A stretch of DNA of 64,000 bases from positions 372,001 to 436,000 of the forward strand of contig NZ_SACL01000003.1 of assembly GCF_004005855.1 (NCBI RefSeq), in the 5' to 3' direction. Positions 790 to 12,396 of the stretch are shown here, piece by piece. The translations under genes were made by a program, and so were the position numbers. Positions within the stretch are counted from its first letter, which is position 1. Each line of letters starts with the position of its first letter. The notes below the pieces were generated by a model, which saw only the letters and a list, made by a program, of their open reading frames with translations, made no database searches and was not told where the DNA came from. Source of the DNA: Rhodovarius crocodyli. Its GTDB lineage: Bacteria > Pseudomonadota > Alphaproteobacteria > Acetobacterales > Acetobacteraceae.

Positions 790-857
790 TGAAAAGGCGA
801 TAGGTCCGTTGTCGGCAGTCCGGCACGCCGCTACCTGTGCCGCTGGAGCCATCACCC

Positions 858-1949
858 ATGCCGATTTCCCGTCGATCAGCATTGTGCCTGGCGGCCGCCA
901 CCTGCAGCGTGGGGGCCGCGGGGCCTGCCGCACCCGCGCTGGCGCAGGTCGCGGGCGGGCCCGCCCAGGCGCGCGTGACGGAGGTATGGGGCCAGTTCCG
1001 CCTGCGCTTCATGGCGCCCGAGGGGCGTATCATCGACACCGGCAACCAGAACGTCTCCCACTCCGAGGGCCAGAGCTACGGCATGATGCTGGCCGTCAGC
1101 TCGGATGACCGGCCGAGCTTCGACCGGCTGTGGAACTGGACCCGCCGGAACCTGCGCCGCCCGCGCGACCACCTGACCGCCTGGCGCTGGAAGCCGAACG
1201 TGCAGCAGCCGGTCGAGGATCTGAATAACGCCACCGACGGCGACCTCATGATCGCCTGGGCGCTGCTGAAGGCCGCGGAGACCTGGAACGCCCCGGAATA
1301 CCGGGAGCAGGCGGTGGCCATCGGCCGCGACATCCTGCGGCTGGTGGTGCGCAGCGCCGGCGGAATGACCGTGCTGCTGCCTGGCGCGCGCGGCTTCGAG
1401 CGGCGCGAGTCGGTGACCATCAACCCCAGCTACTACTGCTTCCCGGCGATCCGTGCGCTGGCCGGCGCGGTGCCCGACCCGGCCTGGGTGCGGATCGCGG
1501 CCGACGGGCTGCAGATCCTGCGGGCGGCGCGCTTCGGCCGCTGGAACCTGCCGCCGGACTGGCTGACCCTGTCGCGCGGGGATCGTCGGCTGTCCCTGCC
1601 CGACAATTGGGCGCCCCGCTTCTCCTACGACGCCGTGCGGGTGCCGCTGTTCCTGGGTTGGGCCGGGCTGGGTCAGGAACCGGCGGTGCAGTCGGCCGCG
1701 ATCTTCTGGGCCGACCCCAGCCACCAGCGCCTGCCGGCCTGGACCGACTTCTCCAGCAATGCCGTGTCTCCCTATGGCGCATCGCCCGGAATCGCGGCCA
1801 TTGCGGCCTTTTCCGCGGCGGTTTCGGGCCGTGGTCTGCGCACCCCCGCCGCCCTGCCGCAGACCGATCCGATGCCCGATTACTACTCGGGTGTGCTGAC
1901 TGCCCTTGTTTCACTCGCGCGGCGCGATTCTGGTGCGGATTTCTGGTGA
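858..1949 (+). CDS. bcsZ: Endo-1,4-beta-glucanase of glycosyl hydrolase family 8 (BcsZ/CMCax type)
   Basis: Periplasmic endoglucanase that trims beta-1,4-glucan during cellulose secretion. The ATG at 858 is preferred to a GTG at 837 because GGAG lies about 10 bases before it and the product then begins with a signal peptide (MPISRRSAL...ALAQ, residues 1-30) whose RR pair could be a Tat motif. SEGQSYGMM carries the likely catalytic acid Glu70. ATDGDLMIAWALLKAAETW (125-143) fits the family 8 signature, including Asp127/Asp129. The length of 363 residues is normal. First gene of the bcs operon, in the position of CMCax in Komagataeibacter. Confidence 0.95.
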   Translation: MPISRRSALCLAAATCSVGAAGPAAPALAQVAGGPAQARVTEVWGQFRLRFMAPEGRIIDTGNQNVSHSEGQSYGMMLAVSSDDRPSFDRLWNWTRRNLRRPRDHLTAWRWKPNVQQPVEDLNNATDGDLMIAWALLKAAETWNAPEYREQAVAIGRDILRLVVRSAGGMTVLLPGARGFERRESVTINPSYYCFPAIRALAGAVPDPAWVRIAADGLQILRAARFGRWNLPPDWLTLSRGDRRLSLPDNWAPRFSYDAVRVPLFLGWAGLGQEPAVQSAAIFWADPSHQRLPAWTDFSSNAVSPYGASPGIAAIAAFSAAVSGRGLRTPAALPQTDPMPDYYSGVLTALVSLARRDSGADFW

Positions 1950-2042: not shown

Positions 2043-2867
2043 ATGGCACAGGACAGTGATGTGGCTCGGGTCGCCGCCACGCTGAACACCCCGGGTCTGC
2101 GCTATCGCAGCTTCGGGAACGAGCCCGTGCGCGTCCGCCCTGTGCCGCCAGCCCTGCCGCCAGTGGTCGAGGAAGAGCCGATTGTGCCTGAATATCAGGC
2201 CGATCCGGTGAATGATCTGCCCGAGAGCAACGCCCCGCTGGAGCCTGAACTGCCGCCGCTGCGCCTGGAGCCGATCGCGCCCGAGCCCCCGCCCATGGCG
2301 GTGGAACCGCCGCCCGCGCCTGTGCCGCCGACGCCCGCGCCTGTGCTGATGTCGCTGGAGCCCGCGCCCGAGCCCCCGCCGGCGCCTGCCCCTGTCGCCG
2401 CGTCCGCGCCGCCCCCGCCCGAGCCCCCGTCGGCGCCGCTGTTTTCCTGGCCCGAGAGCACGCCCGCCGCCCCCGCCGCGCCTTCCCTGCTGCCGGAAGT
2501 GGCCGCCGGCCATGCGGCGCCTGCCGCCCCCGTGCCGGCCGGCGGCTTCCGCCTGCTGGAAGCCATCGGCATGAAGCCGGACGAACAGGCGGCCGCGACC
2601 ACCGCCCCGCAGGGCGGCACGCTGGCCCTGCTGCGCCAGGCGGTCGCGGAACCCGCGTCCCCGCCGCCCGAGTTCTTCAAACTGCCTCCCGCTCAACCGA
2701 TGGTTGCAGGCATGCAGCCGGTGGGTGCGTTGTCCGGCTTGTTGCCTGCTGCGGCCGTGACAGTTCCGCTTTCTGACGTTATGCGCCTTGTGGCGGGCGG
2801 TTCCCCGCCACCCGCATCCCCCTTTGATGCGTTTCGTGCTGCGCTCGGCGCGCAGCCGCAGCGCTAG
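2043..2867 (+). CDS. Proline-rich cellulose-secretion protein with BcsR-like N-terminus (BcsP/BcsH-type candidate)
   Basis: A 274-residue protein starting at ATG 2043 behind AAAGAGG; a GTG at 2016 in the same frame has no such site. Residues 6-25 (DVARVAATLNTPGLRYRSFG) match the spacing of the conserved E. coli BcsR segment, D-[IV]-x2-[LV]-x3-[FL]-x2-P-x-[IL]-x-Y. Residues about 30-170 are almost all Pro, Ala, Glu and Val, so probably disordered. The last 100 residues contain three short amphipathic segments (GGTLALLRQAV, LSDVMRLV, PFDAFRAAL). It sits where ccpAx/bcsH lies in Komagataeibacter and ends 14 bases before bcsQ. Inference: an intracellular scaffold partner of BcsD that also docks BcsQ. 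No transmembrane segment or signal peptide is seen. Confidence 0.7.
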   Translation: MAQDSDVARVAATLNTPGLRYRSFGNEPVRVRPVPPALPPVVEEEPIVPEYQADPVNDLPESNAPLEPELPPLRLEPIAPEPPPMAVEPPPAPVPPTPAPVLMSLEPAPEPPPAPAPVAASAPPPPEPPSAPLFSWPESTPAAPAAPSLLPEVAAGHAAPAAPVPAGGFRLLEAIGMKPDEQAAATTAPQGGTLALLRQAVAEPASPPPEFFKLPPAQPMVAGMQPVGALSGLLPAAAVTVPLSDVMRLVAGGSPPPASPFDAFRAALGAQPQR

Positions 2868-2881
2868 TAACCGGAGGCCCC

Positions 2882-3682
2882 ATGCCCCTGATCGTGTTCG
2901 CGTCCCCCAAGGGGGGCGTCGGCAAGACCACCATGGCCGTAAACATCGCGGATGCGATGCGGCGCAATGGCCGCCGGGTTCTGGTTATCGATTTCGATCC
3001 GCAGAACACCCTGCGACTCCACTTCGGGGTGCCGCTGTCGGATACCGCCGGCTTCATCGCCGAGCTGCCGAAGCGCCCGGACTGGCGCAACGTCGTCCGC
3101 CAGACCCCCTCTGGCGTGATGGTGCTGCCGCACGGCGCGATCGACATCCGTGGCGCGCTGGGCCTGTCCTCCGCGCTGGAGCGTGACCCCGAGCTGCTGG
3201 CCGCCCCGCTGCGCTCCATCATGGCTGACCCCGGGCTGCTCGTGATCGCCGACACGCCCCCGGGCCCCAGCCACGCGCTGAACCTGCTGGCGCCGATGGC
3301 CAGCATGGTGGTCGCGGTGCTGCTGGCCGATGCCACCTCCGCCGCGCTGGTGCCGGACATCGACAACGGCCGCTTCCTGGGTTCGGGCACCATGGCCGCC
3401 CTGTTCGCTGGCCGCCTGCGCGTCGTGCTGAACCAGGTCGATCCGAACTCCCGCCTCTCCCGCGCGGCGGCCGAGACGGTCGCCCGCCACCTTGGCCCGC
3501 GCCTGCTCGGCGCCGTCTGCCGTGACGAGGTGGTGGCCGAGGCCCTGGCCGCCCAGCGCCTGGTGCAGGACATCGCGCCGAACAGCCGCGCCGCCGAGGA
3601 TCTTCGCGAAGTCGCCCGCGGCGTCGAAGCCGCGCTGCCCGCCGTGCCCGATACCCTTCAGGCGGGGTGGGGCGCCCGATGA
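2882..3682 (+). CDS. bcsQ: Cellulose biosynthesis protein BcsQ, MinD/ParA-like ATPase
   Basis: A 266-residue SIMIBI P-loop ATPase. The deviant Walker A KGGVGKTT occupies residues 10-17, DFDPQN follows near residue 39, and DTPPGPSHA is the Walker B region. In enterobacteria BcsQ dimerises with BcsR and assembles the inner-membrane cellulose synthase at defined sites. ATG 2882 follows GGAGG, and the stop overlaps the bcsAB start as ATGA, implying translational coupling. Classical Komagataeibacter bcs operons lack bcsQ, so its presence beside a bcsAB fusion and bcsD is a mixed arrangement. Confidence 0.92.
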   Translation: MPLIVFASPKGGVGKTTMAVNIADAMRRNGRRVLVIDFDPQNTLRLHFGVPLSDTAGFIAELPKRPDWRNVVRQTPSGVMVLPHGAIDIRGALGLSSALERDPELLAAPLRSIMADPGLLVIADTPPGPSHALNLLAPMASMVVAVLLADATSAALVPDIDNGRFLGSGTMAALFAGRLRVVLNQVDPNSRLSRAAAETVARHLGPRLLGAVCRDEVVAEALAAQRLVQDIAPNSRAAEDLREVARGVEAALPAVPDTLQAGWGAR

Positions 3683-6600
3683 GTACGATCGCTCCGCGGA
3701 AGGAGCTGATCGCCCGGTTACCCCTGATGAGGAACCGGTTCGTCGGCTGGCTCTCCTTCCTCATCGGGCTGGTCGCCGCGCTGACCTTCATCGTGGTGCC
3801 GCTTCAGGCCTCCCAGCAGCTTTGGCTCGCTTTGGGGGCCTTTGTCATTTTCCTGGTGTTGAACCGATTCCAGGGCCGCACCATCACGCTGGCGCTCTGC
3901 GCGCTGTCGTCGATGGTGTCGCTGCGCTATATCTATTGGCGCGTGGCCGAGACGCTGGACTACACCGGCTTCTGGCAGACCTTCCTGGGCACCGGCCTGC
4001 TGATGGCCGAGCTCTACGCCGTGGTGGCGCTGGTCCTCTCCTACTTCCAGGTCCTGTGGCCGCTGGAGCGCAAGCCCGTTCCCCTGCCGGACGACCCGGA
4101 GGAATGGCCCACGATCGACGTGTTCATCCCGACCTACAACGAGGCGCTCGAGATCGTGCGCCCGACGGTGTTCGCGGCGCTGGCGCTCGACTGGCCGCGC
4201 CACAAGCTGAACGTCTATGTCCTGGACGACGGCCGTCGTGAGGAGTTCCGCCAGTTCGCCGCCGAATGCGGCGCGGGCTACATCATCCGCCCCGACAACA
4301 AGGGTGCGAAGGCCGGCAACATCAACCACGCGCTGGCGCAGACCGACGGCGAATACGTCGTCATCTTCGACTGCGACCACGTGACGACGCGCGCCTTCCT
4401 GCAGATGACCGTGGGCTGGATGCTGCGCGACCGTGGCCTCGCGATGGTGCAGACGCCGCACTATTTCTACTCGCCGGACCCCTTCGAGCGTAACCTGGCC
4501 TCCGGTCAGCGCGTGCCGAACGAGGGCCTGCTGTTCTATGGCCTGATCCAGCAGGGCAATGACTTCTGGGGTGCCAGCTTCTTCTGCGGTTCCTGCGCCG
4601 TGCTGCGCCGTACCGCGGTGGAGGAAGTGGGCGGCGTGCCGACCACGACCGTGACCGAGGACTGCCACCTGTCGCTGAAGATGCAGAAGGCAGGCTGGCG
4701 CACCTCCTACCTGCGCGCGCCGCTGGCCGCCGGTCTCGCGACCGAGCGCCTGATGCTGCATATCGGTCAGCGGATGCGTTGGGCCCGCGGCATGGTCCAA
4801 ATTTTGCGTCTTGAAAATCCACTTTTTTCGACCGGCCTCAGTTTGCCGCAGCGCATTTGCTACTTCTTGGCCATGTTCCACTTCTTGTTCCCGCTGCCGC
4901 GCTTCGTGTTCCTGACCGCGCCGCTCGCCTTCCTTCTGTTGGGTGAGAACATCATCGCGGCTTCGCCGCTCGCGATCGTTGCTTATGCGGGCCCTCACAT
5001 CCTTCACTCGGTCGCCACCGCGTCCCGCGTGCAGAAGCGGGTGCGCCACAGCTTCTGGTCGGAAATCTATGAGACGGTGCTGACCGTGTATCTGCTGCCG
5101 GTCACGCTTGCCACGCTGCTGGACCCGCGCCGCGGCAAGTTCAACGTGACCGACAAGGGCGGCACGCTGCAGGAAGGTTACTTCGACCTGCGCGCCGTGG
5201 GCCCGAACATGGTGCTGGCGCTGTTCCTGGTGCTGGGTGTGATGTCCGGTATCTACGGTCTGGCGGCCAATCCGCCCGCCAGCCTGGAGTTCCAGGCCTA
5301 CGCGCTGAACCTGGTCTGGGCCACGCTGTGCCTTCTGACGGTGCTGGCGGGCCTGGCCGTGGGCCGCGAACGCCGCCAGATCCGCGAGCGTGCGCGCATC
5401 GCCGCCGAGGTGGGGGCCGCCGTGGCCCTGCCGGACGGCCGCCGGGTGACCGGCGTTTCCGAAGACCTTTCGCTGGGTGGCGCCGCCTTGACCATGGAGC
5501 GCCCGTCCGGCCTGGAGGAAGATCAGTTGGTGACTGTGGAACTTCAGGTCGGTGCCGACACCGTGGAGGTGCCGGCCGAGGTGCTGCGCTGGCAGGATGG
5601 CCGCGCCCAGGTGCGTTTCGTCCCGCAGGATCTGCGCGACGAAGGTGAGATTGTGCGCGCGGTTCTGGGCCGCGCCGATGCGTGGGTGAACTGGGATGCC
5701 AACCGTCCCGACCAGCCCCTGCGTTCCTTGAAGGAGGTGGCGGTGTCCATCGGTGGTCTGTTCGCGGGCGGTTCGCAGTTCTCCTTCCGCCGCAAGGGCG
5801 GCGCCCCGCGTGGTCCGGGCGGCCGTCAGGGCCTGGGCCGCGCCGCCGCGGTGCTGCTGGCGCTGAGCCTGGCCGCCGCGCCGGCCAACGCCCAGCGCAC
5901 GCCGACTGCTCCGGCCGCGGCCCCCCCGGCGCCGCCGGCGCTCGGCTCCGCGCCCGCGCCGCAGCAGCCCATCCTCGACACCACGCCCACCTTGACGACG
6001 CAGGCCGCCGTGCCGGGCCCCGGCACGCGGCGCGAGACCCGCACGCTGCGCCAGCTGGGCCTGCGCGGCCCCATGCAGATGCGCGGCGTGTCCGACCTTC
6101 AGGGCGTGCTGTTCGGCGTGCGCGGCGATGAGGTGGTGACCAACGCCACCCTGACGCTGTCGGGCGCCACTTCTCCGGCGCTGATCCCCGAGCTGTCCCA
6201 GATCGCGATCACGCTGAACGAGCAGTTCATCGGCGCCATCCAGCCCGACCGCGCGCGCCCGGCCTTCGGCCCGCTGCAGTTCCCGGTGAACCCGGTGTTC
6301 TTCGCGGACAACAACCGCCTGAACTTCCGCTTCACCGGCCGGTATGCGGTGGAGTGCAACGATCCGCTCTCCGGCCTGCTGTGGTCCACGATCAGCGACA
6401 CCTCGACCCTGGCCCTGACGCTGGAGCGCCTGCCGCTGACCCGCGACCTGGCCCGCCTGCCGGAACCCTTCTTCGACTACCGCCTGCTGCGTGAGCCGCT
6501 GAACCTGCCCGTCGTGCTGAACGAGGGCGCGGGCAATGAGCTGGTGCGCGCCGCCATCATCGCTTCCTCCTGGTTCGCGGTGCAGGCCGACTATCGCGGC

Positions 6601-8157
6601 GCCAACTTCCCCGTGCAGGGCACCGTGCCCGAGCGCGGCAACGGCGTGATCGTGGCTTCCGGCACCGACACCGTGCCGGGCCTGACCCTGCCGCGCTTCG
6701 ATGGCCCGACCCTGTCGCTGGTGGTGAACCCCAACGACCAGAACGGCCTGCTGCTGGTCATCGGTGGCCGCACCCCGGCCGAGGCCGTGACGGCCGCGAC
6801 CGGCCTGGCCGTGGGCCGCGAATCGCTCTCGGGCGAGACCGCGATCGTCCAGGCCCAGCAGGTTCCGACCCGCGCGCCGTATGACGCGCCGCGCTGGATC
6901 CGCACGGACCGCCCGGTCCGCCTGGGCGAGGTGATGGACCCCTCCGAGCTGCAGGCCTTCGGCTATGTCCCGGGCCCGATCTCCGTGCCCTTCCGCACCG
7001 CGCCTGACCTGCTGACCTGGCGCAACCGCCCGCTGCAGGCCGATATCCGCTTCCGCGCGCCCCCGGGCCCGGTGATGGACGTGTCGGTCTCGCGCCTCGA
7101 CGTGGCGGTGAACGACGTCTACCTGCGCAGCCTGCCGCTGCGCGCCGGCGACCCCAGCTGGCCGTGGTCCTGGGTGCAGCGCCAGGTGGGTTCCAACACC
7201 GACCGCAGCCAGGCCGGCTTCGGCATTCCGCCCTGGATGGTGTTCGGCCAGAACGAGCTGCAGCTGCGCTTCGACATGCGTCCGCTGCACCGTGGCGATT
7301 GCGTGGCCGTGCCCGGCGACGTGCGCGCCTCGATCGACCCGGACAGCACCATCGACCTGTCCAGCGCCTATCGCTTCGCGACGCTGCCGAACCTGGCTCA
7401 CTTCGCCAGCTCCGGCTTCCCGTTCACGCGCCTGGCCGATCTCTCGCAGACCGCGCTGGTGCTGCCGGAGCGCCCGACGGCGCAGGAGCTGACGGTGGCC
7501 ATGGGCCTGATCGGCCGCCTGTCCGCCGTGGTGGGTTATCCGCCGGTGGGCCTTTCCGTGGTGCGCCCGCAGGGGCTTGAGGCCTCGGCCGACCGCGACC
7601 TGATCGTGGTGGGCACGCTGGGCCGCCAGCCCGCGCTGCAGACGCTGCTGCGCGATGGCCCCGTCTCCGCCGAGGGCAACCGCCTGACGGTGAACCTGTC
7701 CGACCCGCTGGGCGATTTCCGCGCCCTGTTCGGCGGCAACCAGGCGCGTGAGCAGCGTGAGCGCGTCTCCGCCCAGCTCGCCGCCCCGGGTGAGGCCCTG
7801 GGCATGCTGGTCGGCTTCGAGAGCCCGCTGCGCGGCGGCCGTTCGGTCGTGGCGCTGACGGGCGCCTCCGCCGCCGGGCTGGAGAGCATGCTGGGCGCGC
7901 TGCGCGACCCCGAGCAGCTGCCCCGCATCCAGGGTGACCTGGCGCTGTTGAGCGGCGGCCGCGTCGAGGGCTATCGCCTCGGCGACACCTATGGCGTCGG
8001 CATCCTGCCGCCCTGGATGTGGCCGCAGTATTATCTGGCCGAGCGTCCCTGGCTGATCCTGGGCTTCGCTCTGCTGGCCATCATCCTGATCTCCGCCCCG
8101 ATCTACTGGGTGCTGCGCCGACGCGCCGCCCTGCGCCTGCGCGCGAGGACGCACTGA
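3679..8157 (+). CDS. bcsAB: Fused cellulose synthase catalytic and periplasmic subunits, BcsA-BcsB
   Basis: A 1492-residue fusion (AcsAB of acetic acid bacteria is similar). The BcsA half has N-terminal membrane segments and a GT2 domain with DDG at 183-185, DCD at 231-233, TED at 326-328 and QRMRW at 364-368, then further membrane segments. A PilZ domain follows with RxxxR at 565-569 and DLSLGG at 596-601, so c-di-GMP binding residues are intact. A hydrophobic junction (about 715-737, ending ANAQ) leads into the BcsB part, which ends with a membrane anchor near the C-terminus. It polymerises UDP-glucose and guides the glucan into the periplasm. Start at ATG 3679, in the ATGA overlap with bcsQ. 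Codons 4798-4857 are anomalously AT-rich. Confidence 0.97.
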   Translation: MSTIAPRKELIARLPLMRNRFVGWLSFLIGLVAALTFIVVPLQASQQLWLALGAFVIFLVLNRFQGRTITLALCALSSMVSLRYIYWRVAETLDYTGFWQTFLGTGLLMAELYAVVALVLSYFQVLWPLERKPVPLPDDPEEWPTIDVFIPTYNEALEIVRPTVFAALALDWPRHKLNVYVLDDGRREEFRQFAAECGAGYIIRPDNKGAKAGNINHALAQTDGEYVVIFDCDHVTTRAFLQMTVGWMLRDRGLAMVQTPHYFYSPDPFERNLASGQRVPNEGLLFYGLIQQGNDFWGASFFCGSCAVLRRTAVEEVGGVPTTTVTEDCHLSLKMQKAGWRTSYLRAPLAAGLATERLMLHIGQRMRWARGMVQILRLENPLFSTGLSLPQRICYFLAMFHFLFPLPRFVFLTAPLAFLLLGENIIAASPLAIVAYAGPHILHSVATASRVQKRVRHSFWSEIYETVLTVYLLPVTLATLLDPRRGKFNVTDKGGTLQEGYFDLRAVGPNMVLALFLVLGVMSGIYGLAANPPASLEFQAYALNLVWATLCLLTVLAGLAVGRERRQIRERARIAAEVGAAVALPDGRRVTGVSEDLSLGGAALTMERPSGLEEDQLVTVELQVGADTVEVPAEVLRWQDGRAQVRFVPQDLRDEGEIVRAVLGRADAWVNWDANRPDQPLRSLKEVAVSIGGLFAGGSQFSFRRKGGAPRGPGGRQGLGRAAAVLLALSLAAAPANAQRTPTAPAAAPPAPPALGSAPAPQQPILDTTPTLTTQAAVPGPGTRRETRTLRQLGLRGPMQMRGVSDLQGVLFGVRGDEVVTNATLTLSGATSPALIPELSQIAITLNEQFIGAIQPDRARPAFGPLQFPVNPVFFADNNRLNFRFTGRYAVECNDPLSGLLWSTISDTSTLALTLERLPLTRDLARLPEPFFDYRLLREPLNLPVVLNEGAGNELVRAAIIASSWFAVQADYRGANFPVQGTVPERGNGVIVASGTDTVPGLTLPRFDGPTLSLVVNPNDQNGLLLVIGGRTPAEAVTAATGLAVGRESLSGETAIVQAQQVPTRAPYDAPRWIRTDRPVRLGEVMDPSELQAFGYVPGPISVPFRTAPDLLTWRNRPLQADIRFRAPPGPVMDVSVSRLDVAVNDVYLRSLPLRAGDPSWPWSWVQRQVGSNTDRSQAGFGIPPWMVFGQNELQLRFDMRPLHRGDCVAVPGDVRASIDPDSTIDLSSAYRFATLPNLAHFASSGFPFTRLADLSQTALVLPERPTAQELTVAMGLIGRLSAVVGYPPVGLSVVRPQGLEASADRDLIVVGTLGRQPALQTLLRDGPVSAEGNRLTVNLSDPLGDFRALFGGNQAREQRERVSAQLAAPGEALGMLVGFESPLRGGRSVVALTGASAAGLESMLGALRDPEQLPRIQGDLALLSGGRVEGYRLGDTYGVGILPPWMWPQYYLAERPWLILGFALLAIILISAPIYWVLRRRAALRLRARTH

Positions 8158-11100
8158 TGAGCTACCGCAAGAACCTGCTCTCCGCTGTGTTCGGCATGGC
8201 GATCGCCATGCCGGCGCTGGCGCAGCAAGACACGCGCGGCATCCAGGCCCTGCTGGACCAGGCGAATTACTGGCGCCTGCAGAACCGGCCGGAACTGGTG
8301 ATCCGCACACTGGAACGGGTTCTCGCGGTTGATCCCAACAACGCGGACGCCCTGGCGGGTGCCGCCCAGGCCCAGGCCCAGGTCGGCAACCGCTCGGCGG
8401 CCGAAGGCTATCTGGCGCGCCTGCGCCAGGCCGCCCCGCAGGACCCGCGCGTGAGCGAGACGGACATCAACGTCCGTGCCGCGACCGTCGACCAGGGCGC
8501 GTTGGCGGAAGCCCGTCGCCTTGGCAGCGCCGGCCGCACGGCCGAAGCCATCGCGCGCTATCGCGAGCTGTTCCGCGGCAACCAGCCGCCGGACAACTAC
8601 GCCGTCGAATACTACCAGACCCTCGCGGGCACCGAGGCCGGCTATACCGAGGCGCGGGACGGGCTGGGCCGGCTTGCCCGCCGCTACCCGACCGACCAGC
8701 GGCTGGGCCTGGCCTATGCCCAGGTGCTGACCTTCCGCGACGAAACGCGCGGCCAGGGTATCGATCGCCTGCGCGACCTCGCGCAGAACCCGGAGGTGAG
8801 CAACACCGCCGTGGCCGCATGGCGCCAGGCCGTGCTGTGGCAGGGCCCCAGCCGCGCGGCCGTGCCGCAGCTGGAAGCCTTCATGCAGCGCTTCCCGAAC
8901 GACACGGTGGTCGCGCAGCGGCTTGAGGAAGCCCGCACCAATCCGCAGGGCGGCCCGGACCCCGCATCCGAAGGCCGTATCCGCGCCTTCGAGAGCCTGC
9001 AGGCCGGCCGTACCGGCGATGCCATTCGCGGCTTCGAGCAGGCGGTGCAGACCAACCCGAACGACGCCGACGCGCTGGGCGGCCTCGGCATCGCGCGCCT
9101 GCGCCAGGGCCGCTTCGGTGAGGCCCGGCAGCTGCTGGAACGCGCCATCGCCGCCAACCCCGAAGGCCGCAGCCAGTGGGAGGACGCGCTGAACGGCGCC
9201 TCCTACGCCGCCGAGCTGGCGACTGCCCGCGCCGCACTGGCCCGTGGCGACCTGAACACGGCCGAGACCAACCTGCGCCGCGCCGTGAACCGCCAGACCG
9301 CCGACCGCGCCGATGCCGAGGCGCTGCTGGGCGACCTGGCGCTGCGCCGCGGTGACATGGCCGGTGCCGAGCAGCGCTATCGCGCCGCCCTGGCCCGTCG
9401 CCCGAACCTGGGTGCCGCCGCCTCCGGCCTGTTCGAGGTGCTGAACCAGCAGGGCCGCTTCGCCGAGGCCGAGCAGCTGCGCGCCCGCATGGGCGGCGCC
9501 TTCGGCGGCGGCAGCCCCGAGAGCCAGCGCGCCTACGCCCTGCGTGCCGAGGCCGCCCGCGCCGGCAACCCGGCCCAGGCCGCCCAGCTGCTGACCCAGG
9601 CCGTGCAGGCCGACCCCGCGAACCCCTGGGCGCGGCTCGACCTCGCGCGCATCTATGCCAGCGCCGGCCGTTCCGCCGAGGGCCGCCAGATCGCCGAGGG
9701 CCCGGCCCTCGCCGGCGGCGCCTCGCCCGACCAGCTGCATGCCGCGGCCCTGTACGCCAGCGACGACGGCCGCCCCGAGGACGTGCTGCGCTACCTTTCC
9801 GGCATTCCGGTGCGTCTGCGCAGCCCGGACATGAACCGGCTGCTGCAATCGGCCCGCACCGACCAGGAAGCCCGCCAGGCGACCGCGCTGTACCGCGCCG
9901 GCCGCCGGGGTGAGGCCCGGGCCGCGCTGACCGCCATCGCCTCGCGCCCCGATCCGTCGGGCGCTTCCGCCGCCGCGGCCATCCGCGCGATGGGCCGCGC
10001 GAACGACCGCGCGGGCGCGGCCGAGGCCGGCCGTGCCTATGTGGCCGCCAACCCCACGGCCGGTGCCCAGGCCCGCCTCGCGGTGGCCGGTGCCCTTCTC
10101 TCGGCCGGTGCCACCAATGAGGCGGCGGCCCTGTCGCGCAGCCTCGAAGTCGCGCCGAACCTCTCGGCCGAGGATCGCCGCCAGGCGGCCGCCCTCGCCA
10201 GCGGCCTCGCCATCCAGACCTCGGACCAGCTGAACCAGCGTGGCGACCAGGCCGCGGCCTTCGACGTGCTGGCCCCGGCTCTGCAGCGCGACCCCAGCTC
10301 GGTTCCCGCCAACCTGGCGCTGGCCCGCCTGTACCAGGGCGCCGGCCAGCCGCAGCAGGCCCGCCAGATCACCGAAGGCATCCTGCAGCGTGACCCGCGC
10401 AACATCGATGCGCGCGTCGGCGCCATCGAGGCCGCGATCGCCGCGCGCGACTTCTCCCGCGCCGAGGCGCTGCTGGTCGAAGCCCGCGCGCTGAACCCGA
10501 ACGACCCGCGCGTGGCCCTGACCGAGGCCCGCATCGCGCGCGCCTCCGGCAATTCCAGCCGCGCGTTGCGCGCCCTGGAACTGGCCGCGGAGCAGCGCCG
10601 CGCGCAGGGCGTGGTCGCCGATGTGCCCGCATCCCCCGAGGCCGCGGGCGGCTTCGACAACCCGTTCCGCCGCCTGTCGCGCGCCGGTGCCCTCGGCGGC
10701 GCCAGCATGGGCCAGTCCGACCCGCTCTCGAACGAGATCTCGCGCGAGCTGACCCAGGTGCGCGAGGAAACCGCCATGCGCATCCAGGGCGGCATGGGCT
10801 TCCGCAGCCGCTCCGGCTCCGCCGGTTTCGACCGCCTGGACGAGTATTCGGCGCCGATCGACGCCTCCTTCTCCATGCCGGGCGTCGGCGGCCGTACGAC
10901 CATCAGCGCCACGCCGGTCTCCATCAGCAGCGGCCAGCTGGACAGCTCCAGCGTCGATTCGCTGCGCCGCTACGGCTCCAACGCGCTCAGCCAGGACCTG
11001 CGTCAGCAGATCGGCTCCACCACGCAGCTGTCGGCCGCCACGCGCGACCGCTACGCGCCGCGTGACACCAGCGTCAGCGGTGCCAGCTTCGGCATCGCCT

Positions 11101-11912
11101 ATACGCGCGGGGCGTTCAGCGCCGATATCGGCACCTCGCCCATCGGTTTCCGGCGCCAGAACATACTGGGCGGCATCGAGATCGCGCCGGCCCTGTCCAA
11201 CAACTTCCGTATCCGCCTGATCGCGGAACAGCGCGCGGTGACGGACAGCCTGCTGTCTTGGTCGGGCGTGCGTGACCCGTATTCGGGCGCCACCTGGGGT
11301 GGCGTGGTCCGCTCCGGCGGGCGCGTCCAGCTTGAATACACCAATGGCCCGGTCGGCGTTTACATGCTGGGCGGCTACAGCACCTTCACCGGCACCGGCG
11401 TGGCGCGCAACAACCGCGTCGAGGCCGGCGTGGGCATGCAGTACACCGCATGGCGCCTGCCCAATGAGGAGCTGACCATCGGTGTCGACGGCGTGTTCTT
11501 CGCCTATGACAACAACCAGCGCCTGTTCACCCTGGGCAATGGCGGCTACTTCTCGCCGCAGTCCTACTTCGCGGTGAACATTCCGATCGACTGGCGCGCG
11601 CGTTCGGGCAACTTCGCCTGGCGCCTGGGCGGCACCATCGGCTACCAGTCCTTCCGCGAGGACGCCGCCAAGTTCTTCCCGCGTGACGCTGCCTTGCAGA
11701 CCGCGCTGGAACAGTCGCTCAGCGGCGATACCACGCTGCGCGCCATTCAGCCCGGCCAGTCCCAGTCCGGCATCACGGGTGGCGTGAGGGCGGATCTGGA
11801 ATATGCGATGACCCAAAGCTTGCGTGTCGGCGCTCTGCTCCGTTACGAGCGGACGGGCAACTGGGAGGAGGCCCGCGGCCTGCTCTACGCGCGCTATCGT
11901 TTCGATCGGTGA
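8157..11912 (+). CDS. bcsC: Cellulose synthase outer-membrane subunit BcsC (TPR plus beta-barrel)
   Basis: 1251 residues. A Sec signal peptide (residues 1-23, ending ALAQ) precedes about 800 residues of TPR-like helical repeats, for example around DPNNADALAGAAQAQAQVGN. The C-terminal part, from about residue 880, is rich in alternating aromatic/polar strands and ends YARYRFDR, as expected for the BCSC_C outer-membrane barrel. It exports the glucan across the outer membrane while the TPR scaffold spans the periplasm. The start ATG shares its A with the TGA of bcsAB (TGATG), which rejects the much longer in-frame extension to 8019. Confidence 0.95.
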   Translation: MSYRKNLLSAVFGMAIAMPALAQQDTRGIQALLDQANYWRLQNRPELVIRTLERVLAVDPNNADALAGAAQAQAQVGNRSAAEGYLARLRQAAPQDPRVSETDINVRAATVDQGALAEARRLGSAGRTAEAIARYRELFRGNQPPDNYAVEYYQTLAGTEAGYTEARDGLGRLARRYPTDQRLGLAYAQVLTFRDETRGQGIDRLRDLAQNPEVSNTAVAAWRQAVLWQGPSRAAVPQLEAFMQRFPNDTVVAQRLEEARTNPQGGPDPASEGRIRAFESLQAGRTGDAIRGFEQAVQTNPNDADALGGLGIARLRQGRFGEARQLLERAIAANPEGRSQWEDALNGASYAAELATARAALARGDLNTAETNLRRAVNRQTADRADAEALLGDLALRRGDMAGAEQRYRAALARRPNLGAAASGLFEVLNQQGRFAEAEQLRARMGGAFGGGSPESQRAYALRAEAARAGNPAQAAQLLTQAVQADPANPWARLDLARIYASAGRSAEGRQIAEGPALAGGASPDQLHAAALYASDDGRPEDVLRYLSGIPVRLRSPDMNRLLQSARTDQEARQATALYRAGRRGEARAALTAIASRPDPSGASAAAAIRAMGRANDRAGAAEAGRAYVAANPTAGAQARLAVAGALLSAGATNEAAALSRSLEVAPNLSAEDRRQAAALASGLAIQTSDQLNQRGDQAAAFDVLAPALQRDPSSVPANLALARLYQGAGQPQQARQITEGILQRDPRNIDARVGAIEAAIAARDFSRAEALLVEARALNPNDPRVALTEARIARASGNSSRALRALELAAEQRRAQGVVADVPASPEAAGGFDNPFRRLSRAGALGGASMGQSDPLSNEISRELTQVREETAMRIQGGMGFRSRSGSAGFDRLDEYSAPIDASFSMPGVGGRTTISATPVSISSGQLDSSSVDSLRRYGSNALSQDLRQQIGSTTQLSAATRDRYAPRDTSVSGASFGIAYTRGAFSADIGTSPIGFRRQNILGGIEIAPALSNNFRIRLIAEQRAVTDSLLSWSGVRDPYSGATWGGVVRSGGRVQLEYTNGPVGVYMLGGYSTFTGTGVARNNRVEAGVGMQYTAWRLPNEELTIGVDGVFFAYDNNQRLFTLGNGGYFSPQSYFAVNIPIDWRARSGNFAWRLGGTIGYQSFREDAAKFFPRDAALQTALEQSLSGDTTLRAIQPGQSQSGITGGVRADLEYAMTQSLRVGALLRYERTGNWEEARGLLYARYRFDR

Positions 11913-11919
11913 TGAGGGC

Positions 11920-12396
11920 ATGAGCGGACAACAGATCATGGACCCCAGCGCCATTTCCTACATGGCGCGCCGGGGCGTCGCCCCCCAGTGGCGCGGCTTC
12001 CTGCGCGCGCTGGTCGAGACGCTGGACACCCATCTGGACGCGGCGGGCCGTGACGCGCTGCTGCGCGCCGTGGGCGGCCGCATGGCGCAGCTGGCGGCCA
12101 TTCCCGCCTGCGGCACGCTGGCCGAGCTCGAAACCCGCATAAACGACGTGCTGGCCGCGGCGGACTGGGGTTATGCGCAGATCTCGCTGGATGCGCAGGC
12201 CAAGGCGATGTTCATCGCCCATCATGCCGCACCTGCCGTCTCCACCTATCACGACGCCCAGGGCGCCTGGGTGGGTGCGGTGCTGGAGGGTCTGTACGCC
12301 GGCTGGCTGGCGACCCAGCCCGGCGCCGAGGGCGGTGTTTCCGTGAAGGTGCAGCCCGGCGGCGGCGGGGCCATCACCCTGCGCTACGGCAAGTAA
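11920..12396 (+). CDS. bcsD: Cellulose synthase subunit D (crystallinity scaffold)
   Basis: 158 residues, close to the 156 of AxceSD. The C-terminal VLEGLYAGWLATQPGA closely resembles the corresponding AxceSD segment, and the central WGYAQISLDAQAKAM matches the WGYVKLDLLAEEQAM region. BcsD forms oligomeric rings that align synthase complexes and promote crystalline cellulose, and in characterised species it pairs with proline-rich partners. ATG 11920 lies 7 bases after the bcsC stop with TGAGGG upstream. Last gene of the operon; a GC hairpin follows immediately. Confidence 0.93.
   Translation: MSGQQIMDPSAISYMARRGVAPQWRGFLRALVETLDTHLDAAGRDALLRAVGGRMAQLAAIPACGTLAELETRINDVLAAADWGYAQISLDAQAKAMFIAHHAAPAVSTYHDAQGAWVGAVLEGLYAGWLATQPGAEGGVSVKVQPGGGGAITLRYGK

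Follow-up and report, generated by a model that had tools for sequence, protein, structure and literature searches.

Which partners are held together by the proline-rich protein whose gene lies between bcsZ and bcsQ in a cellulose operon of Rhodovarius crocodyli? The original prediction, made for the window analysed here (the whole stretch of 64,000 nucleotides), was that a BcsR-like N-terminal segment docks on BcsQ and that the proline-rich rest binds BcsD. We find that the protein is a BcsP of alphaproteobacterial type, forming a link between BcsR and BcsH/CcpAx, and that its N-terminal segment probably docks on the synthase BcsA rather than on BcsQ, as judged from sequence comparison.

The adaptor gene and its operon

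The operon runs on the plus strand in the order bcsZ-adaptor-bcsQ-bcsAB-bcsC-bcsD. It comprises bcsZ, encoding a GH8 endoglucanase (852..1949; Pfam PF01270, E 1.3e-67), the BcsP-type adaptor gene (2043..2867), bcsQ, encoding a SIMIBI ATPase (2882..3682; PF06564 and TIGR03371 above cut-off), a bcsAB fusion for the cellulose synthase (3679..8157; TIGR03030 match and alignment to PDB BcsA), bcsC (8154..11912; PF05420, E 4.1e-93) and bcsD (11917..12396; PF03500, E 1.8e-46). Coordinates and Pfam matches agree with the predicted position of the adaptor gene, directly before bcsQ in an operon that also has bcsD. The closest named locus is that of Rhodovarius lipocyclicus, with a 95% identical BcsQ. 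Upstream of bcsZ, an ORF on the minus strand (3-767) resembles, by eye, a fumarylacetoacetate-hydrolase-type enzyme.

The adaptor ORF opens with an ATG at 2043 and ends at 2867. It encodes 274 residues with 24% proline, reaching 35% in the linker (residues 31-160; 2133..2522, plus strand). An alternative in-frame GTG is present at 2016; in loci L037, L041, L043, L045 and L052, the longest ORF starts at the methionine equivalent to 2043 (MAQDSDVARV). Across 18 aligned orthologues the first 30 residues are the most constant part, with D6, R9, Y21, F24, N26, P28, V29 and R30 invariant. As a single sequence, the protein matched no Pfam or NCBIfam family (Pfam searched to E 1).

The same genome carries a second bcs operon outside the window, on contig C11 (locus L145, 9914-10729 and 10737-11183; bcsQ-bcsAB-bcsC), with neither bcsD nor bcsZ on its 19-kb stretch. 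In its adaptor, Glu replaces the Asp of the N-terminal segment described below (EIANVAASCALQGFRYMAF), and the C-terminal BcsD motif is absent.

A BcsR-like plug at the N-terminus

Residues 6-24 of the adaptor (DVARVAATLNTPGLRYRSF; 2058..2114, plus strand) form a segment resembling the N-terminal domain of BcsR, here termed the plug. The predicted gapless alignment was reproduced: residues 6-21 pair gap-free with residues 21-36 of E. coli K-12 BcsR, with 3 of 16 positions identical and similarity at D21, I22, L25, F29, P32, I34 and Y36. The BLOSUM score of this pair is equalled in the first 60 residues of 10 out of 8,517 non-adaptor ORFs (L145-L162 excluded), so that the single pair is no more than suggestive. 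The BcsR pattern put forward with the prediction matched 18 of the 10,400 ORFs in 131 loci; 17 of these are the gene immediately before bcsQ/bcsA, and the last one, in L162, is an ORF containing the BcsR-like match of L136.

At the level of the family, an iterated search seeded by the window N-terminus alone collected 60 ORFs from 25 genera (E<=1e-3, searched within a database restricted to this bacterial family), all of them adaptor genes on inspection. Fifty-eight belong to the 100 genes picked before bcsQ/bcsA in this bacterial family, a set that includes truncated and divergent members; the remaining two, an alternative ORF in L184 and an opposite-strand gene beside bcsA in L090, also look adaptor-like. 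Compared with a profile of ten BcsR, BcsP and Pseudomonas-like BcsR-BcsQ fusion sequences, the plug profile matched with 91.6% probability and a score of 27.5, the best of 300 column shuffles reaching 14.5. We regard this family profile as decisive for the likeness of plug and BcsR in sequence.

Other searches gave less. PF10945 did not match the adaptor up to E 1, its six weak matches in the window's genome at E<=10 all fell outside the adaptor gene, and phmmer with residues 1-34 found nothing in the PDB. The expected relationship to the BcsR family thus stood as a profile-profile match (0 of 300 shuffles as high) and failed as a Pfam match of the individual protein, and an identification of the adaptor as BcsR proper was dropped on the PF10945 result. 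A plain profile of 59 plugs from loci with bcsQ gave poor scores for most BcsR types (for E. coli BcsR 1.5 bits, a level also reached by 426 non-adaptor ORFs), L136 being exceptional at 18.1 bits; for most BcsR types, the link is therefore visible only by profile-profile comparison. In the reverse direction, a BcsR-type HMM run against the 10,400 ORFs returned three matches from its own training loci plus L147, another BcsP-type gene. The next ten matches (E 0.02 to 3) were eight adaptor genes and two false ones, and the window protein was absent up to E 50.

A chance resemblance in a low-complexity protein would fit the few identities and the lack of any Pfam, NCBIfam or PDB match for the single sequence, but the family profile beats every shuffle and all 18 pattern matches are BcsR-like or adaptor genes. 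We excluded coincidence at the family level on the shuffle comparison and consider its residual probability negligible.

Some loci show variations of this architecture. In L186 (2032-3066) and L041 (5231-6265), the plug occurs a second time within the adaptor, as an incomplete tandem copy (VGAALKAPGLRYRSFGNEPVREPRVDVS). The L090 gene (9437-10726, plus strand, opposite to bcsAB) is plug-bearing and adaptor-like, with APWLxALRDG-type internal repeats and the C-terminal motif. L170 and L171 have adaptor-bcsQ pairs, with no bcsA, bcsB, bcsC or bcsD found on their stretches.

BcsA residues that accompany the plug

In E. coli, cryo-EM shows the N-terminal segment of BcsR as a hairpin, with a helix from D21 to S30, that inserts its L25-F29-L31-I34 tip into a pocket of BcsA. 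D21 is flanked by BcsA R367 and R792, and BcsR holds BcsQ through its C-terminal helices. The N-termini of BcsP share homology with BcsR, and a consensus betaproteobacterial BcsP N-terminus has been modelled in the same pocket (all from PMC11470070). Since the solved BcsR segment docks on BcsA, the proposed BcsQ dock corresponds to the BcsA plug already published in that source.

In the window BcsA, the proposed docking site spans R238 to M243 (E. coli R367 to M372; 4390..4407), accompanied by A347 (E. coli I476; 4717..4719), which co-varies with 372, and by R665-A666 (E. coli R792-A793; 5671..5676), the hinge arginine of the R-D-R triad described in PMC11470070 and its neighbour; all three lie on the plus strand. 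Both the window protein and almost every one of the 147 aligned copies have R367 and R792, so these residues discriminate poorly. Plug-less extra copies in Komagataeibacter-like genomes keep R367 in six of seven cases and R792 in all seven. R792 is lost in 7/7 copies that we take, from their lineage, to be type III-like.

We scanned 700 BcsA columns, comparing 85 systems that have a parsed plug or a BcsR-type gene with 14 that have neither, the latter being the seven extra Komagataeibacter-like and the seven type III-like copies; 32 loci with a plug unparsed by the pattern were excluded, as was L117, whose BcsA is split over two ORFs. Only columns 371, 372, 476 and 542 separated the two sets. 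Column 372 is hydrophobic in 84/85 systems with plug or BcsR and charged in all 14 without; column 476 is likewise hydrophobic in 84/85 and charged in 11 of the 14 (otherwise Q, Q and T). In a BcsA tree calculated without the separating columns and rooted, by choice, on the type III-like group, the seven extra copies form the sister group of those from BcsH operons and have K/R at 372 with E/Q at 476; plug profiles run over their 3.9-5.0 kb stretches gave E 0.3 at best. Genus g85 (L113, L115, L116), which played no part in the choice of columns although its residue 372 was known before the scan, has an adaptor with the C-terminal BcsD motif and no recognised plug, and shows E372/K476 in 3/3 copies. 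Together with the extra and type III-like copies, it makes three clades that lack the hydrophobic pair, mostly with opposite charges in its place.

Three BcsA copies are misfits, with a polar or charged residue at 372 or 476 (L245, L253, L248); L248 has a BcsR-like gene nearby. At column 364, an Asp plug coincides with V/I364 in 52/52 cases and a Glu or other plug with A364 in 18/18, a pattern that counts as one event because the latter form one clade. More generally, the adaptor and BcsA counts are not independent events, as the sequences are related. We infer that residues 372 and 476 line the pocket for the plug.

BcsQ, BcsA or lineage

That the N-terminus binds BcsQ, with the proline-rich rest on BcsD, draws on bcsQ being the next gene and on reports in PMC11470070 that BcsR of E. 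coli is found in a complex with BcsQ, that BcsP expression or stability appeared higher with BcsQ and that the BcsR N-terminus threads onto BcsQ in some crystal states. The same source states, however, that N-terminal BcsR mutations leave BcsRQ formation unaffected, and the RWPLL half, which binds BcsQ in BcsR, does not follow the plug in the window adaptor. The plug is also retained where bcsQ is undetectable. Among loci with bcsD and without bcsQ (12 usable loci, 6 genera), the iterated search found it in all five outside the BcsH type (L091, L096, L107, L108, L112), and the hydrophobic 372/476 pair is kept in all 12; in the converse class, bcsQ without bcsD (39 loci, 16 genera), the same search found it in 23/39, one via a re-picked ORF. 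A genome-wide search of 13 genomes with bcsD and no adjacent bcsQ revealed no bcsQ, the best match scoring 80.7 bits against at least 139.9 bits in three control genomes and 117.1 for the weakest bcsQ accepted in another search. We therefore gave up BcsQ as the main N-terminal partner, considering that assignment highly unlikely. An element that binds either BcsQ or BcsA depending on state, with only the BcsA state surviving in lineages that lack bcsQ, would accommodate the two published BcsR N-terminal conformations (PMC11470070) and the many loci that combine bcsQ with a hydrophobic BcsA site. As none of the sequence features found requires a BcsQ-bound state, we think this unlikely, too.

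The BcsA changes could instead reflect lineage, or another partner lost along with the adaptor, the plug binding something else. The control groups are indeed few clades, the Glu-plug group is a single clade of 18, and the root of the BcsA tree on the type III-like group was chosen. Yet charged residues at 372 occur in three separate clades with the charge orders E/K, E/K and K/E, one of these clades lay outside the column choice, and columns 371 and 372 are close to R367, a BcsR contact according to PMC11470070. Either of these origins of the pattern, with the plug bound elsewhere, hence appears quite improbable. Docking of the plug on BcsA in these bacteria is the reading to which the sequence comparisons point.

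An internal motif that tracks bcsQ

About 145 residues beyond the plug, the adaptor has an FxLL motif (FRLLEAI, residues 169-175; 2547..2567, plus strand) that may be the BcsQ contact. Like the C-terminal pattern treated below, the motif pattern was composed after some of the sequences had been inspected. FxLL occurs in 53 of 78 adaptors from loci with bcsQ as compared to 1 of 12 without (Fisher p 1e-4, phylogeny ignored). Within the bcsQ loci, it is found in 28/39 adaptors without bcsD, 24/37 with bcsD and 1/2 of unknown bcsD status (L178 and L186, kept apart for that reason), for shuffle expectations of 1.7, 2.4 and 0.2, about 4 in sum; the expectation for the loci lacking bcsQ is 1.0. Ten of the 100 adaptor rows of the family were dropped from this count as truncated, wrongly picked or out of frame. 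Exceptions are the 25 of 78 bcsQ-associated adaptors that miss the motif and the bcsQ-less L112, which has it. The FxLL windows matched a profile of the BcsR RWPLL half with 61% probability (0 of 200 shuffles as high), no more than a suggestive result given that the windows were selected by the motif. Together, these patterns suggest that FxLL may bind BcsQ in these bacteria, and a BcsQ-to-BcsD tether through FRLLEAI, as opposed to the plug, is possible.

A C-terminal element that tracks bcsD

Residues 239-268 (VTVPLSDVMRLVAGG...FDAFRAAL; 2757..2846, plus strand) hold a C-terminal motif present in 50 of 53 adaptors from loci with bcsD and in 3 of 39 from loci without (a Fisher p-value for this ignores phylogeny), the shuffle expectation for the latter being 0.5. 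By class, it was found in 38/41 adaptors with both bcsQ and bcsD, in 12/12 with bcsD only and in 3/3 of unknown bcsD status (L178, L185 and L186, set apart). It was missed in L082, L099 and L118 and found in the bcsD-less L175, L182 and L213. Five of the 100 adaptor rows were dropped on the same grounds as for FxLL. A locus counted as lacking bcsD if its stretch has bcsC without bcsD (33/39), if its genome has no bcsD match (5), or in the case of L164; bcsD status was assigned by hand for eight loci, namely L164 (lacking) and seven broken contigs of genomes with bcsD (having it).

The PDB entry 7zzq links this region to BcsD: its chain Q, deposited as 'BcsH fragment', corresponds to the C-terminal element, and its chain A matches BcsD. 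C-termini of 33 adaptors with both bcsQ and bcsD matched BcsH C-termini with 86.5% probability (score 26.8, 0/200 shuffles), whereas those of 34 bcsD-less adaptors did not (0.18%). L063, whose C-terminus is unlike that of its relatives, was excluded from the C-terminal profile, as were L090, L093 and L118. A strict C-terminal HMM reached 16 close relatives and not BcsH; profile A1, run against the PDB, gave only low-complexity TonB/ZipA matches (E 0.2 to 1.2) and did not find the 7zzq BcsH fragment. Given the N-terminal profile match and the match of the family C-termini to a BcsD-partnered piece of BcsH, the claim that one polypeptide joins BcsR-like and BcsD-partner characters holds, while its supposed BcsQ dock is more probably a BcsA plug.

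Related adaptors

Betaproteobacterial BcsP shares with the window protein the proline-rich character, the BcsR-like N-terminus and the position beside bcsQ in a bcsD operon (PMC11470070; L147, L148). A defining trait of BcsP is that it brings BcsD into scaffolds, an activity that BcsQ enhances. In the BcsP-type gene L123, a complete BcsR domain with RWPLL is retained, unlike in the window adaptor, where the plug half alone is N-terminal and FxLL follows further along. Enterobacterial BcsR (PF10945) has the D-[IV]-x2-[LV]-x3-[FL]-x6-Y core and a gene before bcsQ in common with the adaptor, but is only 62 residues long in E. coli, with adjacent BcsQ-binding helices and neither a proline-rich part nor a BcsD element. 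The genes before bcsQ in L153, L154 and L158 presumably encode BcsO, the gammaproteobacterial BcsD partner; they have W-x-[LI]-[LI]-type motifs, their C-termini are Leu-rich, as in L159, and, in contrast to the window adaptor, their plug is variable or absent. L132 (1492-2610) and L134 (1492-2691) each have a single ORF in which a BcsR-like domain is joined to BcsQ.

BcsH/CcpAx of Gluconacetobacter and Komagataeibacter has its gene immediately downstream of bcsZ and ahead of the synthase gene, as in the window, where bcsQ (2882-3682) precedes the synthase gene; a search of eight BcsH-type genomes yielded no bcsQ. We use BcsH-type, or Komagataeibacter-like, as a label for genera g61 and g73, based on the match of the L080 gene to the PDB BcsH fragment and on operon order. 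One key paper on BcsH and BcsP is said to treat bcsH as specific to Gluconacetobacter. Like the window family, BcsH combines the C-terminal BcsD element seen in 7zzq_Q with an N-terminus that looks plug-like: a profile of five of the seven BcsH sequences matched the plug profile with 91% probability (score 28.6, 0/300 shuffles). Directly against BcsR, the match was weak (7%, 1/300 shuffles as high), and the iterated plug search at 1e-3 reached 0/7 BcsH-type loci. With the profile of plugs from bcsQ loci, BcsH ranked 79 to 780 of 7,555 ORFs; with a sub-type plug profile, L076 and L078 were outranked by 46 and 52 non-adaptor ORFs and the other five by 1 to 4. Unlike the window adaptor, all seven lack FxLL, and their plug turn is 1-3 residues longer. 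Judged by its sequence, BcsH nevertheless seems to possess this plug as well, in which case the cortical belt may be attached to BcsA directly.

A putative three-point tether

The BcsR part thus seems to be split in the window protein into an N-terminal plug, a distant BcsQ element and a terminal BcsD element. With the motifs, the family homology, the gene correlations and a PDB deposition that pairs a BcsH fragment with a BcsD-like chain directly observed, we put at roughly 70% the probability that BcsP/BcsH-type adaptors are proline-rich tethers, probably disordered, with three docking elements (plug on BcsA, FxLL on BcsQ, C-terminus on BcsD) that would connect the synthase to the BcsD scaffold and, in loci that have it, to BcsQ. 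The plug would insert into BcsA at the positions of E. coli R367 and R792 and stabilize the active synthase; the internal FxLL would replace the RWPLL helix of BcsR and hold BcsQ; and the C-terminal two-helix element would bind BcsD, on which the scaffold would be built. In Gluconacetobacter and Komagataeibacter, BcsH would be the same adaptor minus bcsQ and FxLL, having retained the plug and the BcsD element.

Part of this is already in the literature: betaproteobacterial BcsP joins BcsR-like and BcsD-partner characters, and its N-terminus has been proposed to dock on BcsA (PMC11470070). The available parts of PMC11470070, PMC12412545, PMC12430437 and PMC9693552 contain no mention of the extension to BcsH, of plug retention without BcsQ or of the BcsA pocket switch; the dedicated BcsHD paper (PMC9757748) and Sana et al. 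2024 may describe an N-terminal motif of BcsH. How the inner BcsHD belt attaches to the synthases is not spelled out in the accessible portions of the first three, and a plug-like N-terminus in BcsH would explain this attachment of the inner crystalline-cellulose scaffold. We lean, if only slightly, towards the wider proposition that BcsH/CcpAx carries a BcsR-type plug locking directly into BcsA, that BcsR, BcsP and BcsH form one adaptor family gaining and losing elements with their partners, and that plug-less BcsA copies close the pocket by an opposite-charge pair at 372/476.

If so, the belt would be fastened to the synthase without BcsQ and could activate BcsA allosterically. The plug offers a concrete, mutable contact, comprising the Asp, hydrophobic tip and Tyr of BcsH and residues 372 and 476 of BcsA. 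The same element would both activate the enzyme and attach the scaffold, in systems with and without BcsQ.
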